DNA of 64,000 bases from Arthrobacter sp. Soil764 (GTDB taxonomy: Bacteria > Actinomycetota > Actinomycetes > Actinomycetales > Micrococcaceae). Location of the stretch: NCBI RefSeq assembly GCF_001428075.1, contig NZ_LMSI01000020.1, forward strand, positions 516,154 to 580,153. The letters run 5' to 3'. Both the position numbers and the translations under genes were made by a program. Below, one piece after another: positions 46,517 through 53,261 of the stretch. How positions within the stretch are numbered: the first letter of the stretch is position 1; each line of letters opens with the position of its first letter. The notes under the pieces were generated by a model that saw nothing but the letters and a program-made list of their open reading frames with translations, had not been told where the DNA came from and did not search any database.

Positions 46517-48118
46517 TCAGGCGGCGTGCAGCCGCACGGCACGCCGGCGCAGCAGCAGGTAGGCCGCGACCGCGGCGGCCACCAGGAGCGCGATCAGCAG
46601 CAGCGCGATTAACGGGTTGTCCAGCCACGACGACGGCGACACAGCAGCCACCTTGGTGTGCAGCTCCTGGGTGCCGGCCGCGATTCTTGCGTTGCCATCC
46701 GCCAGTTTTCCGGCACCATCGGCAAGTTTGCCGGAGCCGTCGTCCAGCTTGGTGTTGCCGTCAGCCAGCTGGCCGGTTCCGTCGGCGAGCCGGGCGGAGC
46801 CCGATTCCAGCTGCCCCGTTCCACTGCTGAGCTTGACGGTGCCGTCGGAGAGGGCTTCCGTGCCCGCCAGCAGGCCAGGGTTTTCCGGATCTCCGTTGCC
46901 GTTGATTCCCGCGCTGAGCCTGGTGGTGCCGTCTTGGAGGTTGTTGGCGGCGTAGATCAGGCCGGGACGTTCGGGGTCGCCCGGCACGCCGTCCATTCCC
47001 ACCCGGATCTTCGCGGTGCCCTCGGCCAGCATGGAAGTACCCAGCACCACGCCGGGGTTCTGCGGGTCCGTCGCGTTGAGTTTTTCCGCCAAAGTGGCGA
47101 ATCCGGCCGTCAACCGTCCGGCGCCGCTTTTCAATTCGCCGGCTCCCGCGCTCAGCTTGGCGGTCCCGGCCTTCAGCTGCCCGGCGCCGTCGTTCAAGGC
47201 CACAGCTCCGTCATTCACTTTTGCCGCGCCGGCATCAAGCTGGACGGCGCCGGCATAGGCCCTCCGGCCTCCGTCGGCCAGTTTGGCAATCTGGTCCCTG
47301 ATCACCGCAAGCGGCACCAGGCCCTGGGGTCCGTTCGCGGCCGCTTCGAGCTGGTCCAGTCCCTGGCTGAGCGCGGCGAGCCCGTCACCTCGTGCGGGAT
47401 CGTTCCCCGCACCCGGGTAACCCTTCAGCTGGCCTGCTCCGGCTGCGAGCTGGCCGGTGCCATTCTTCAATGCTGCAGTCCCGTTGGTGAGGGTTGCGGC
47501 GCCGGCATCCAGTTGCCCGGCACCCGCAGCGAGTTGACCCGTGCCTGCAGCCAGCTGGCCCGCGCCGTCAGCAAGGTTGTTCGGCGCGTTTCCGGAAGCC
47601 GTTGGGGTCAGGGCCGCGGAAAGGGCCACCGCGCCGGTCTGAAGCTTCCGCGCGCCGTCGTCCACTTGATAGACGCCGGGCACGAGTTTGTTCAGGACGT
47701 CATTCTGCAGCTTGGTGGTACCGGCATGCAGCTTGTCCACGCCCGGCGCCAACTGGTCACGGACTCCCGAGAAGATCCTGCCGGCTCCCGACTGCAGCGC
47801 AGCGGCTCCGGCATTCAATTCGCTGCTGCCGTCCTTGACCTTGATCGAACCCTCCTTCACCTGCGATGCGCCTTGGTTCGCGGCGCCGGCTCCTGCAGCC
47901 AACTGGCCCGAGCCGACCTTGAGCTGGTTGGCCCCCGCGGCGGCTTGCTCCGCGCCGTCCATCAGCTGGGCGGCGCCATGGGAGATCTGGCCCGTGAGGT
48001 AGGTGTAAAAGGCCAGGAACAGTATCAGCAGCAGGGACAGAGCCACGATGGCAGTGGACTGGGACCGGGACCGGGGTTTGGGCTTGGCTGTTGCGATGGT
48101 TTCTGTGTGGGTCGTCAA
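46517..48118 (-). CDS. membrane protein with tandem G-x-x-L repeats (YhgE/Pip-like)
   Basis: A roughly 533-residue protein with one N-terminal helix (IVALSLLLILFLAFYTYL), one C-terminal helix (LIALLLIALLVAAAVAAYLLL) and, between them, about 430 residues of 7-residue repeats of the type (D/A)GAGQLAAGT. This plan resembles the linker of YhgE/Pip-type proteins, which tether membrane segments across the envelope. Extracytoplasmic coiled or solenoid structure is inferred. TTG at 48116-48118 has AGGAAG 8 nt upstream; the in-frame GTG at 48125-48127 would leave no spacing. Tandem TTAC-N6-GTAA palindromes lie about 110 bp upstream. Confidence 0.78.
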   Translation of the reverse strand: MTTHTETIATAKPKPRSRSQSTAIVALSLLLILFLAFYTYLTGQISHGAAQLMDGAEQAAAGANQLKVGSGQLAAGAGAANQGASQVKEGSIKVKDGSSELNAGAAALQSGAGRIFSGVRDQLAPGVDKLHAGTTKLQNDVLNKLVPGVYQVDDGARKLQTGAVALSAALTPTASGNAPNNLADGAGQLAAGTGQLAAGAGQLDAGAATLTNGTAALKNGTGQLAAGAGQLKGYPGAGNDPARGDGLAALSQGLDQLEAAANGPQGLVPLAVIRDQIAKLADGGRRAYAGAVQLDAGAAKVNDGAVALNDGAGQLKAGTAKLSAGAGELKSGAGRLTAGFATLAEKLNATDPQNPGVVLGTSMLAEGTAKIRVGMDGVPGDPERPGLIYAANNLQDGTTRLSAGINGNGDPENPGLLAGTEALSDGTVKLSSGTGQLESGSARLADGTGQLADGNTKLDDGSGKLADGAGKLADGNARIAAGTQELHTKVAAVSPSSWLDNPLIALLLIALLVAAAVAAYLLLRRRAVRLHAA

Positions 48119-48230
48119 CGCTGACACTTCCTAACTGTCCGCCGGGCGACGCTGCCCGGCGGCATAAACCGTGGTTGTTTGGCCTTCGGCAAATCCTCGT
48201 GGGTGTCCGGAGGAACGGAAGGGGAGGTTG

Positions 48231-48741: not shown

Positions 48742-48821
48742 CGTTAAAACTGCGCAGACCTCGCGGATGCGTTGAGGGGCTCGGCCTACCTTGGACCGTA
48801 GGTTCGGGCGTGGGGGAAAAT

Positions 48822-49874
48822 ATGCTGGGAAAACGTTTTGCCGAGAGCAAGAATTCGTTGAATGCGATCCGATTGGGTCTCGCAGCCCTTGTGATCGTTT
48901 CTCATTCATGGTGGCTCGGAGGATACGGTCCGGAGCCTGCACCAGGGGGAGTCAAACTAGGCAGTTGGGCAGTTCTTGGCTTCTTCGGGATTTCCGGGTA
49001 CCTAATCACCCGGAGCAGGATGCGGGTTGCGGCAAGCGACTACTGGCTCGCGCGCTTCCTGAGAATCTTTCCCGGCCTTGTAAGCTGCGTCGCAGCAGTA
49101 GCGTTTGTCATTGCCCCACTCACGGCAGTGTTGACTGGGCGACGCTATTGGTTTCCCGATGCAATACTCTACTTTGCCAGCAACTTGTCCGCCGGGCTCC
49201 CAGGGGTGGCCGTAGGAGGCATTCCAGGATCATTGGAGGGATTACCCGATCCGCGCCTGTGGAATGGGCCACTATGGACCTTGTTCTGGGAGATCGCCTG
49301 CTACATACTGATCGGCGTTTTGTTTCTCGCGTTTAGATCAGAGTTGGCGCGGGTGGCCGTGCTCTGTCTCTTCTTCGCGGGAACGGTTGCCTTATTTGCC
49401 GTTGATGCGGGATGGGCCTCCCCGCCAACCCCTTATGATTGGCCACTTGTGCCCGTGACCACCTTTCTCGCTGGATCGCTGGTGTTTTTGTTTCAAGACT
49501 GGATCCCAGTGGGACGCAAAACGGTGTGCCTGTCCACTGCCCTCGTTGTGTTGGTTGCTTCGCTGGGTTACGCGCAGTCGCTCGTCCATATACCTCTGTC
49601 GGTCTTCCTGTTGTCTGGCTCATTGCATCTGCCGCTATCAACTGTCGGTTCACGTTTCGATATCTCGTTTGGCGTGTATATCTATGGGTGGCCGATGCAA
49701 CAGGTACTTGCGTCTGGCGGTCTTCATACTGCGGTTCCGCCCGAACTGTTCGCCATAGCTGCACTTTTACTGGTTGCTCCCATAGCCTGGCTCTCGTGCC
49801 GCTACGTGGAGTTACCAGCACGAGTGTGGCTGCGACGCCGGAAAGATCGAGCCTCCGCTCCTCAACTGGCATGA
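48822..49874 (+). CDS. acyltransferase family (type 3) membrane protein
   Basis: A roughly 350-residue integral membrane protein with about ten helices. The catalytic pattern R-x10-H of acyltransferase-3 proteins is seen in NAIRLGLAALVIVSHSWW (about residues 14-31). Such enzymes O-acylate sugars of exopolysaccharide or cell wall. Codon use differs from the neighbours, with codons such as TTA, ATA and AGA, and the gene follows tRNA-Glu directly, suggesting acquisition. GGGGGA lies 4 nt before the ATG; a GTG at 48810 is an alternative start. Confidence 0.82.
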   Translation: MLGKRFAESKNSLNAIRLGLAALVIVSHSWWLGGYGPEPAPGGVKLGSWAVLGFFGISGYLITRSRMRVAASDYWLARFLRIFPGLVSCVAAVAFVIAPLTAVLTGRRYWFPDAILYFASNLSAGLPGVAVGGIPGSLEGLPDPRLWNGPLWTLFWEIACYILIGVLFLAFRSELARVAVLCLFFAGTVALFAVDAGWASPPTPYDWPLVPVTTFLAGSLVFLFQDWIPVGRKTVCLSTALVVLVASLGYAQSLVHIPLSVFLLSGSLHLPLSTVGSRFDISFGVYIYGWPMQQVLASGGLHTAVPPELFAIAALLLVAPIAWLSCRYVELPARVWLRRRKDRASAPQLA

Positions 49875-49881
49875 TATTGCT

Positions 49882-51648
49882 GTGACCTCCCATGACGAGC
49901 ATGGCCGCCCCGCCCAGCCGGTGCCGCACGCGATGGCGGCGGTAACCCTGCTGGAAGAAGTCCGCAGCGGACTGGACGACGTTGCGCTGCCGCTGGCCTT
50001 GCCGGGGGCAGACCAGGCACGCCGCGAAACGTCAGCCGCAAGGGCACAATTGGACGACTACATCCTCCCGCGGTACCGCAGCCTGGACGCCCCGCTGCTG
50101 GCCGTCGTGGGCGGTTCCACGGGCGCCGGCAAATCCACCCTGGTGAACGGACTCGTGGGGCATCCTGTCACACGGGCGGGCGCCATTAGGCCCACCACCC
50201 GCCAGCCCATCCTGCTGCACAACCCCGTAGAGGGAACCTGGTTCGAGGGCCAGCGGGTCCTGCCCGGACTGAGCCGGATCCGCGGCACCCTGGCCGGCAG
50301 CCCCGTGGCGGGAGGCGCCATGCCGGAGCAACGGGAAGCCTCCTCGCTGGTGTTGCTGGCCGATCCGGCGGTACCGGCCGGCATCGCCCTCCTCGACGCT
50401 CCTGACGTCGACTCCATTTCAGACCAGAACCGCCTGCTCGCCGGACAGCTGCTGGCCGCCGCGGACCTATGGGTGTTCGTCACCACGGCCAACCGGTATG
50501 CGGATGCCGTTCCCTGGAAGCTCCTCCTGGACGCCGCCGCGCGTGACATCACGGTGGCGGTAGTGCTGGACCGGGTTCCCCGTGGCGCCGAGGAAGAGGT
50601 GAGCCAAGACCTCCGGGGCCTGCTCGACCGGGAGGGCCTCGCCGGAAGCCGGCTGTTCATCATCGCCGAGACAGCCCTGGATCCGCACGGCATGCTCCCG
50701 CCCCGGGCTGTCACCGAGCTCAGGGACTGGCTCGGTTCCCTTGCCGCCGATGCTGCCGGCCGGGCCGAGGTGGCCCGCCGCACTTTGAACGGGACGGTCC
50801 GCGCCCTGGCCCTCCGTATTCCGGACATCGCCGGCGCCGTCCGTGAGCAGGAGCTGGCCGCCGTGCGCCTCGAGGCCGATGCCGTGGCAGCGTATGAAGA
50901 TGCGGCCACCCGCATCCTTGACGCCACCCGCGACGGAGCACTCCTGCGGGGCGAAGTGCTGGCCCGGTGGCAGGACTTTGTGGGTACCGGTGAATTCTTT
51001 CGCACAGTTGAGCAGAACGTGGGCCGGTTCCGGGACCGGCTGGGAGCCTTCTTCCGCGGTGAACCGGCCCCGGCCGTCCGGGTGGAGGCCGCCATCGAAA
51101 CCGGCCTCCAGGCAGTCATCGTGGACGAGGCCGCCAATGCGGCGGAGGACACCGACCAGCGGTGGCGGTCAGACCCTGCCGGCCGGCAGCTGCTGGGTCC
51201 GGACGATCTGTCCGGGACCACGCCCGGGTTCGCCGACCGGGCCGCAGCGGAAATTCGGGCATGGCAGGAAGCCCTCATGGAGCTCATCCAAACCGAAGGC
51301 CAGGGAAAGCGGACCCAGGCGCGGTGGCTGTCGTTTGGCATCAACGGCCTCGGCGCTGCGCTGATGATCGTGGTGTTCTCTACCACTGCCGGCCTGACTG
51401 GACTGGAGATTGGTGTTGCGGGCGGTACCGCCGTCGTGGGCCAGCGCCTGCTGGAGGCGGTCTTCGGCGAGGACGCCGTGCGCCGCATGGCCGACAAAGC
51501 CCGTGAGGACCTGGCCGTGCGCTGCCGGAACCTGCTGGCGGACGAGCAGCAGAAGTTCCTGCAGCGGCTGCCGGAAGGTAATCCCGCCCTTGCGCAACGT
51601 CTTGCTGCCCAGGCCGGGGAGCTGGCACGGCTGGCGGAGGCCGCGTGA
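49882..51648 (+). CDS. dynamin-like GTPase, first of a tandem pair
   Basis: A 588-residue GTPase. The P-loop GGSTGAGKST is at about residues 76-85, a switch I-like stretch RPTTRQPILL follows, and the G3 position reads LLDAPDVDS (about 171-179), not DxxG. A canonical N/TKxD is not seen (VVLDRVPRGAEEE at that place). Two hydrophobic segments lie at about 482-530 (ALMIVVFSTTAGLTGLEIGVAGGTAVVG). It overlaps the second GTPase by 4 nt. The plan resembles the actinobacterial dynamin-like pairs such as Streptomyces DynA/DynB; that link is inference. Confidence 0.8.
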   Translation: MTSHDEHGRPAQPVPHAMAAVTLLEEVRSGLDDVALPLALPGADQARRETSAARAQLDDYILPRYRSLDAPLLAVVGGSTGAGKSTLVNGLVGHPVTRAGAIRPTTRQPILLHNPVEGTWFEGQRVLPGLSRIRGTLAGSPVAGGAMPEQREASSLVLLADPAVPAGIALLDAPDVDSISDQNRLLAGQLLAAADLWVFVTTANRYADAVPWKLLLDAAARDITVAVVLDRVPRGAEEEVSQDLRGLLDREGLAGSRLFIIAETALDPHGMLPPRAVTELRDWLGSLAADAAGRAEVARRTLNGTVRALALRIPDIAGAVREQELAAVRLEADAVAAYEDAATRILDATRDGALLRGEVLARWQDFVGTGEFFRTVEQNVGRFRDRLGAFFRGEPAPAVRVEAAIETGLQAVIVDEAANAAEDTDQRWRSDPAGRQLLGPDDLSGTTPGFADRAAAEIRAWQEALMELIQTEGQGKRTQARWLSFGINGLGAALMIVVFSTTAGLTGLEIGVAGGTAVVGQRLLEAVFGEDAVRRMADKAREDLAVRCRNLLADEQQKFLQRLPEGNPALAQRLAAQAGELARLAEAA

Positions 51649-53261
51649 GCCGCCACAGCGGGGCGAAGGATTCCTCGCGGCTTGATGCCAGGCTCCAAGC
51701 GCTCCAGGACGCCCGGGAGCTGGGGGAGGGGGTCCTGCCGGACCAGTCACTGCAGGAAGCATTCGACGTCCTGGAGCGCGCAAGTTCCCGCCGTTCATTG
51801 TCCGGTGACCACACTGTGGTGGGGTTCTTCGGGGCGACCGGCAGCGGCAAGTCCTCGCTCTTCAACGCCGTCAGCGGCGCCGAGATTGCGACGGCGGCGG
51901 CCCGCCGTCCGACCACATCGGAACCTCTGGCGGGCGTTTGGGGAGCGGCAGGAAGCGAAGCGCTCCTCGACTGGCTGGAAGTGGGAAACCGCCATCACGC
52001 CGCGCCTGTGGACGGTTTCGCCGATGAACAGACCGGGCTGATCCTGCTGGATCTCCCGGACTTCGACTCCACCCGCGCTGCCAACCGCGAGATCGTGCAG
52101 CGGATGGTGGGCATGGTGGACGTCCTGGTGTGGGTGCTGGACCCGCAGAAATATGCCGATGCCGCCGTCCACAACGGGTTCCTGGCGCCGCATGCCTCGC
52201 ACGGGGCGGTCACGCTTGTGGTGCTGAACCAGGTGGACCGGCTGCCCGAACGCGATGTGCGGCCGGTGCTCGACTCGCTGCATGCAATCCTTTCAAGTGA
52301 AGGGCTGGGGCAGGTGCGCGTCCTCGCGTCATCGGCAGTGACGGGAGCAGGGATTGGGGAAGTGCGTGCGGCGATCCGCAAGGTGGCTGTCCAGCGGCAG
52401 GCCCAGTCCCGGCGGCTGGAGGCAGACATCACCAAGGCTGCGGAGGACCTGCGGGGCGCGGCCGGCGACGGTGAGGCGGCGGGCGTCCGGAACGCAGCCA
52501 GGACCCGGCTCGCCGAGGAGCTGGCCGTGGCAGCGAACGTGCCTGCTGTGGTGCGGGCCGTGGGGCAGTCCTACCGGCTGGAGTCCGTCCGGCGCACCGG
52601 CTGGCCGGTGACCCGCTGGCTCTCCAGGTTCCGCGCAGACCCACTGCGCCGGCTCAATCTCCGCAGGGATTCCCCTGCAGGCGTGAACAGGACCTCGCTG
52701 CCGCCCGCGGGCGCGCCGGAGCGGGCGCGGACGGATGCAGCCGTCAGGGATTTTGCGGATACAGCCAGCGAGGGAGCACCGGGCCCCTGGCGGGCAGCGA
52801 TCCGGGGGGCTGCCAGGGCCGGCCGGGAACGGCTGCCCGATGCGCTGGACCAGGCCATCGCCGGAACAGACCTCGGGGCCAACCGCAAGGCGTGGTGGTG
52901 GGGCGCATTCAACATCGTGCAGTGGCTGGCGCTGCTGACGGTGCTCGGTGGCCTGGGCTGGCTTGCTGTCCTGGCCGGCCTGGCCTACCTTCAGCTGCCG
53001 GTGCCGGAAGTGCCACGCGTGGAAGGCTGGCCAATTCCCACCCTGATGATCGTCTTCGGCCTGGTGCTGGGGATCTTCCTGGCCGTCACCGGCCGTTTCA
53101 TCGCGGCCGGAGCTGCCCGGGCGCGGTCAGCAAGGGCACGACGGCGGCTGAACAGCGCCGTCGCAGCCGCGGCGGAGGAGCTGGTGGTGGCGCCTGTGGA
53201 GAAGGAAATTGCCAGGCTGGCAGCCTTCAACAAGGCGCTGCAGAAAGCAGCGCGGTCCTAG
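51645..53261 (+). CDS. dynamin-like GTPase, second of a tandem pair
   Basis: A 538-residue GTPase. The P-loop GATGSGKSS is at about residues 64-72, ARRPTTSEPLAGVW is the switch I region, G3 reads LLDLPDFDS (about 134-142) and G4 is VVLNQVDRLPE (about 192), so nucleotide recognition is better kept than in its partner. Two or more helices lie at about 420-485 (IVQWLALLTVLGGLGWLAVLAGLAYL and LMIVFGLVLGIFLAV). It starts at GTG within the end of the first GTPase gene. A shared membrane-remodelling or septation role is possible. Confidence 0.82.
   Translation: MSRHSGAKDSSRLDARLQALQDARELGEGVLPDQSLQEAFDVLERASSRRSLSGDHTVVGFFGATGSGKSSLFNAVSGAEIATAAARRPTTSEPLAGVWGAAGSEALLDWLEVGNRHHAAPVDGFADEQTGLILLDLPDFDSTRAANREIVQRMVGMVDVLVWVLDPQKYADAAVHNGFLAPHASHGAVTLVVLNQVDRLPERDVRPVLDSLHAILSSEGLGQVRVLASSAVTGAGIGEVRAAIRKVAVQRQAQSRRLEADITKAAEDLRGAAGDGEAAGVRNAARTRLAEELAVAANVPAVVRAVGQSYRLESVRRTGWPVTRWLSRFRADPLRRLNLRRDSPAGVNRTSLPPAGAPERARTDAAVRDFADTASEGAPGPWRAAIRGAARAGRERLPDALDQAIAGTDLGANRKAWWWGAFNIVQWLALLTVLGGLGWLAVLAGLAYLQLPVPEVPRVEGWPIPTLMIVFGLVLGIFLAVTGRFIAAGAARARSARARRRLNSAVAAAAEELVVAPVEKEIARLAAFNKALQKAARS

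Follow-up and report, generated by a model that had tools for sequence, protein, structure and literature searches.

The stretch analysed here (the window) consists of 64,000 nucleotides from Arthrobacter sp. Soil764, a member of the Micrococcaceae, and contains two adjacent genes for dynamin-like proteins (DLPs), which we call A and B; their open reading frames (ORFs), both on the forward (+) strand, overlap by 4 bp. An earlier note, made from the letters alone, had described two tandem ORFs with P-loops and C-terminal membrane segments, a motif D-A/L-P-D-V/F-D-S replacing the G3 motif DxxG in both, and a G4 motif that was not canonical in A and was NQVD in B. Coordinates and motifs were confirmed, and the features of the pair are as follows (C-terminal hydrophobic segments were called by a simple hydropathy scan).

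49882..51648, + strand: protein A, DynA-type dynamin-like protein, 588 amino acids (aa), from ORF, Pfam and model; start codon uncertain
50110..50139, + strand: A, G1/P-loop GGSTGAGKST, residues 77-86
50188..50199, + strand: A, G2, RPTT (switch I Thr)
50395..50415, + strand: A, G3 position, DAPDVDS (Gly changed to Asp), residues 172-178
50566..50580, + strand: A, G4 position, LDRVP, lacking the guanine-specifying Asp and with an invariant Arg, residues 229-233
51325..51423, + strand: A, hydrophobic segment, possible membrane hairpin, residues 482-514, partly of low confidence in the model
51645..53261, + strand: protein B, DynB-type dynamin-like protein, 538 aa, from ORF, Pfam and model
51831..51857, + strand: B, G1/P-loop GATGSGKSS, residues 63-71
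51906..51917, + strand: B, G2, RPTT
52050..52070, + strand: B, G3 position, DLPDFDS (Gly changed to Asp), residues 136-142
52227..52238, + strand: B, G4, NQVD, residues 195-198
52914..53012, + strand: B, hydrophobic/transmembrane (TM) segment 1, residues 424-456 (model helix 417-448)
53019..53123, + strand: B, hydrophobic/TM segment 2, residues 459-493 (model helix 464-536)

The GTG start of A at 49882 is uncertain, the first 17 or so residues not being conserved in the relative G002 (genomes and loci are cited by our G and L numbers), where the match begins at residue 18. Both proteins exceed the Pfam Dynamin_N cut-off of 27 (A at 31.1 bits, B at 30 bits), B scoring equally well on MMR_HSR1 (30.6 bits), and they align with each other at 32% identity across the GTPase (G) domain, with LNQVD of B opposite LDRVP of A.

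The AlphaFold models (predicted local distance difference test, pLDDT, 83.1 for A and 85.3 for B) have a G domain, a helical bundle and C-terminal hydrophobic segments, as expected of bacterial dynamin-like proteins. Top Foldseek matches for the pair include BDLP, Drp1, Cj-DLP, IniA, OPA1 and mitofusins: the best for A was BDLP (2j69, E 1e-9), with Cj-DLP (5owv) and IniA (6j72) lower, and the best for B was Cj-DLP1 (5owv_A, 3e-8), followed by IniA (6j72, 8e-8). After VIA realignment, truncated Fzo1 and MFN1 led, with Z values of 21.7-23.1 against A and 20.7-23.1 against B, over 279-331 residues with root-mean-square deviations of 2.6-6.1. Many plain GTPases followed at Z 14-19, but their alignments cover no more than the G domain, and the weight therefore lies on coverage beyond it. 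Sequence and model thus support a classification of A and B as predicted mitofusin/BDLP-type dynamins. The best long structural alignments are indeed with Mitofusin, Fzo1 and BDLP1, although sequence identity in them is 10-15%, and these proteins keep D-x-P-G. The Cj-DLP1/Cj-DLP2 system of Campylobacter is likewise a heteromeric pair lying side by side, but, according to the published account, GTP turnover there needs both P-loops and the assembly domain of Cj-DLP1 is specific to Campylobacter.

Motifs across the A and B families

How general are the unusual motifs? At least 122 pair loci were available, 59 taken by coordinates and at least 63 from a scan of named genomes; both proteins were recovered from 120 of them (at L140 and L187, which were left out, a single ORF took both best matches), making 121 pairs with the window. 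The critical G3 residue was Asp in every B and in 117 of the A proteins (Pro in three, Ser in one), so that the motif seen by the earlier note can be refined to a G3 in which Asp replaces Gly (D-x-P-D); the canonical D-x-x-G is found in neither A nor B. Since D-x-P-D is also present in the Streptomyces members, it marks a subfamily. For comparison, we took the best Dynamin_N matches among those listed from 98 genomes, together with the IniA- and IniC-like genes of the window genome itself: of these 27 other dynamin-like ORF pieces, 25 had D-x-P-G and two lacked that stretch.

The difference at G4 is also family-wide. N-[QH]-x-D occurs in 121/121 B proteins and in 0/121 A proteins; the second G4 place of A is Arg in all 121, and the last is Asp in just three (L073, L150 and L166, each DRVD). 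A nevertheless keeps the P-loop Lys (119/121; L104 is truncated and L157 has Arg) and RPTT (120/121). An apparent P-loop break in B of L181 and L183 was a misreading, an intact P-loop preceding an insertion, and in L186 the A and B matches are scattered over different frames, so that the break in B there is not sound evidence of loss. The insertion in these two Arthrobacter B genes (at about 6319-6690 in L181 and 6379-6726 in L183) is in frame, adds roughly 105-115 residues and lies between switch I and G3.

Of the two proteins, A varies more, as is seen from three things. At L101-L103 it is reduced to a bare G domain of 313-314 aa with decayed switch II; the hydrophobic region is missing from the four Streptomyces A rows that were aligned; and no C-terminal hydrophobic segment was called in 25 of the 121 A proteins, as against six B proteins. 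(The B proteins have two such segments in 87 cases, as in the window, three in 11, one in 17 and none in six.) Beside the bare A of L101-L103 stands a B with all four motifs, as expected if A were a regulatory subunit.

These motifs suggest that A and B would use nucleotides unequally, A acting on another nucleotide or on none. A more specific proposal, which we put forward tentatively and regard as somewhat doubtful, is that A may be a family-wide non-guanine dynamin, with its P-loop intact and the base-reading motif replaced around the invariant Arg, so that the complex might be a mixed-nucleotide hetero-G-dimer (or one with one active and one regulatory half) whose halves would each carry a D-x-P-D switch II, which the other dynamins in the comparison do not. 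ATP could possibly be used by A: the EHD ATPases combine a dynamin-type fold with ATP, and they match A at Z 14.7-16.1, but this is no higher than plain GTPases, and no sequence link between them and A was found. A literature search, which did not cover full texts, found no paper on G4 loss in an A subunit, and we do not claim that the loss is unpublished.

Common descent and co-inheritance

Two questions, on either of which the reading of the earlier note could have failed, had been set beforehand: whether A and B belong to separate, unrelated GTPase families, and whether they lack co-conservation. Neither proved to be the case. On the first, a tree was made of 78 rows (22 A and 22 B proteins chosen from larger sets, 23 DLPs, and 11 Era-like proteins, on which it was rooted; six of the latter were checked, and all pass the NCBIfam Era cut-offs). 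A and B together form one clade (99/99, and in 100% of 200 bootstrap trees), distinct from the Era-like rows (100/99) and with the IniA/IniC-type DLPs outside it (99/99). This tree replaced a first one that had two outgroup rows, of which L005 (which we take to be RsgA, circularly permuted) fell among the A/B rows on a branch of 5.2, and in which support was 96/99 for B, 51/85 for A and 99/93 for the DLPs.

On the second question, matches at E<=1e-20 were counted in 197 genomes of the class, weaker ones (seven genomes for A, one for B) being left out. A was found in 86 genomes and B in 87, and 85 of the 88 genomes with either have both; the single-partner genomes (G051 with A; G009 and G042 with B) are drafts of 320-480 contigs. 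The order is A then B on one strand in 120/120 loci (a count favoured by the choice of the 59 coordinate-taken loci for closeness of both matches), with a median inferred gap of 29 bases. Distances among A proteins correlate with those among B proteins (r 0.91, shared ancestry not removed). The view that A and B are paralogues of one clade, travelling as a unit, is therefore supported at the level of sequence. In seven genomes of family f20 (G016, G055, G087, G131, G141, G151 and G161), two A-B pairs occur (e.g. L077 and L078); of the two in G161, just one is accompanied by EttA.

That the two might simply be unrelated neighbouring GTPases, an Era-like B beside a dynamin A, was suggested by the NCBIfam and PDB sequence matches of B, which include Era, Der and HflX-like GTPases. 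The single A+B clade set against Era and other DLPs, the D-x-P-D-x-D-S and RPTT motifs common to both proteins, the 85/88 co-occurrence and the modelling of both as mitofusin-type dynamins make this barely credible.

A tree was also made by a quick method from joined A and B sequences, using the 85 pairs left from the 121 once near-duplicates, short rows and five named loci had been removed. In it the window pair groups with G002 and Arthrobacter sp. 131MFCol6.1, then with A. agilis, and then with relatives from Rothia and Dermabacteraceae, while Streptomyces rows lie beside pairs of Streptosporangiaceae and Thermomonosporaceae.

The setting of the pair varies. A B gene was called at 111 loci; at least 53 of these carry an SSB-like gene after B in the same orientation, and 70 have an EttA-like gene on the pair's strand (family models confirmed one EttA and two SSB examples). 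The SSB-family gene, which stands directly after B (e.g. L095, L097 and L111), often has EttA beyond it, a possible functional DynAB-SSB link. Both genes are missing from the window and from six further Micrococcaceae loci; instead, gltX- and leuC-like genes flank the pair in eight Micrococcaceae loci (the window, L067, L153, L158, L161, L162, L181 and L183), NCBIfam naming the flanking genes of the window gltX, leuC and leuD. Two promoter-like sites were found (shuffle mean 0.4), neither directly upstream of A on its strand, and four terminator-like sites (shuffle mean 4.2). Two nearby genes were recorded separately.

48810-49874, + strand: membrane acyltransferase (Acyl_transf_3), ending 7 bases before A and not counted as part of the pair
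46517-48127, - strand: protein of 536 aa with short Gly/Ala/Leu repeats and hydrophobic ends (by eye), with no Pfam match

This distribution also bears on the idea of an anti-phage defence system of LeoBC or dynamin type. Weak PADLOC similarity hints at it (LeoBC at E 2.9e-4 for A and 1.5e-3 for B; mad3 at 6.1e-4 and mad8 at 2e-3 for B), but the matches are partial, at the P-loop in the case of B, and the pair is broadly co-inherited and occupies the gltX-leuC slot in the eight loci just listed, unlike a defence island. When viral contigs were scanned for close relatives of A, none turned up and thus no link to viruses, and we consider a defence role very improbable.

Probable DynA/DynB identity and a possible role at the septum

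The earlier note had left the actinobacterial subtype unnamed. We ran Dynamin_N against six Streptomyces genomes (code g27). Four of them (G112, G018, G133 and G173) gave no matches other than A, with B as well in G173, and Era; G163 had one further ORF, matching on the P-loop stretch alone, and G057 had three further DLPs. The g27 rows L092, L093, L099 and L100 fall among named Streptomyces in the joined tree, and in the trees the Streptomyces pair lies inside both the A and the B families. As the pair is the sole dynamin-like match besides Era in four of the six genomes, it should be DynA/DynB. We take sven2472 to be dynA and ssbB to be SCO2683. A table in PMC3765725 equates sco2685 with sven2472, a 'putative ATP-binding protein'; the BldC paper (PMC6428758) treats dynAB as an operon, with vnz_12110 as DynA and vnz_12105 as DynB; and PMC8748795 gives DynB two TM segments and places DynA and DynB at sporulation septa. 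The window pair is thus very probably the Micrococcaceae DynA/DynB, a kind of pair that in Streptomyces steadies the division ring, sharing with the Streptomyces proteins the A-B gene order, the two-TM B and the G-domain motifs, and it is not a new kind of system.

A second dynamin locus of the window genome (contig C1, about 137.8-142.5 kb; L001 and L002) is different. It comprises, in a row, an ORF that is presumably IniB-like, an IniA-like gene and a gene for a second DLP that is IniC-like by place. The IniA-like product matches 6j72 at E 8.5e-143. The IniA/IniC of mycobacteria resemble A and B as an actinobacterial dynamin-like pair of similar fold, but the IniA- and IniC-like genes of this genome have D-x-P-G and an Asp at G4, and IniA/IniC-type proteins fall outside the A+B clade.

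We think it probable that the window contains the dynA-dynB of Micrococcaceae, an old actinobacterial pair, and that its products form a heteromeric, membrane-anchored complex of the division membrane in which B is a guanine-specific GTPase and A a variable partner with altered nucleotide use. Membership in the DynA/DynB family is well supported; the mechanism and location are inferred. A and B would assemble as a hetero-oligomer with paired G domains, held in the membrane by both TM segments of B and, in the Micrococcaceae lineage, by the hydrophobic segment of A. B would act as a guanine-specific GTPase, and A, keeping its P-loop and switch Thr without the guanine-reading Asp, may be a nucleotide-promiscuous or regulatory partner. 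The complex would sit where the septal membrane invaginates and could stabilize the Z-ring or remodel that membrane; here it would have to work without an SsgA-family protein, for example via SepF (the window genome has one SepF-family gene) or directly on the membrane.

A number of points weigh against this interpretation. The septal role has been shown in Streptomyces only, and the identification with DynA/DynB rests on elimination, gene order and locus tags, with identity to the Streptomyces pair just 35-38%. In the final tree, A is weak as a clade of its own (64/77, against 94/98 for B), and the DLP rows do not form one clade; the bootstrap had not settled, and long branches meet. Whole-chain TM-scores in Foldseek are low (0.2-0.5), and sequence-profile searches of PDB found no dynamin: for A there was nothing usable (dynamin-1 at E 0.57, and immunity-related GTPases at the P-loop by profile), and for B there were generic GTPase matches. 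The pair is absent from many members of the class, including the eight genomes listed for family f4, which is of the same order, and must therefore be dispensable for binary fission. Finally, there are differences from Streptomyces: the neighbourhood of the window pair lacks the SSB and EttA genes; the hydrophobic segment of window A has no counterpart in the four aligned Streptomyces A rows; and, of the DynA/DynB partners SsgB, SepF2 and SepX, the first, a partner of DynB, belongs to the SsgA family, of which no match was found in the window genome or G002 (G112 and G018 have six each, and G161 has one).

These last differences, with a fold like that of Cj-DLP, a tethering pair, would also suit a DynAB-family dynamin that in Micrococcaceae serves not division but the general surveillance or repair of membrane stress, a role proposed for DynA of B. 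subtilis. We consider this unlikely: the IniA-like dynamin of the other locus, next to which a second DLP lies, could already fill such a role, and PMC8748795 reports that DynB homologues co-occur with SepX beyond Streptomyces, among others in unicellular actinobacteria.

The tandem dynamin-like pair with unequal nucleotide motifs that the earlier note had proposed is thus backed by sequence, predicted structure and co-conservation, and is very probably the DynA/DynB whose Streptomyces members are septal. The conserved G3 change from Gly to Asp and the A-only loss of G4 provide a clear and testable mark by which the subfamily can be told from the IniA/IniC-type dynamins that these genomes also encode. 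With a DynA/DynB-type pair in a lineage in which an SsgA-family gene was not found, the role of DynAB in ordinary binary fission becomes testable apart from the sporulation machinery of Streptomyces.

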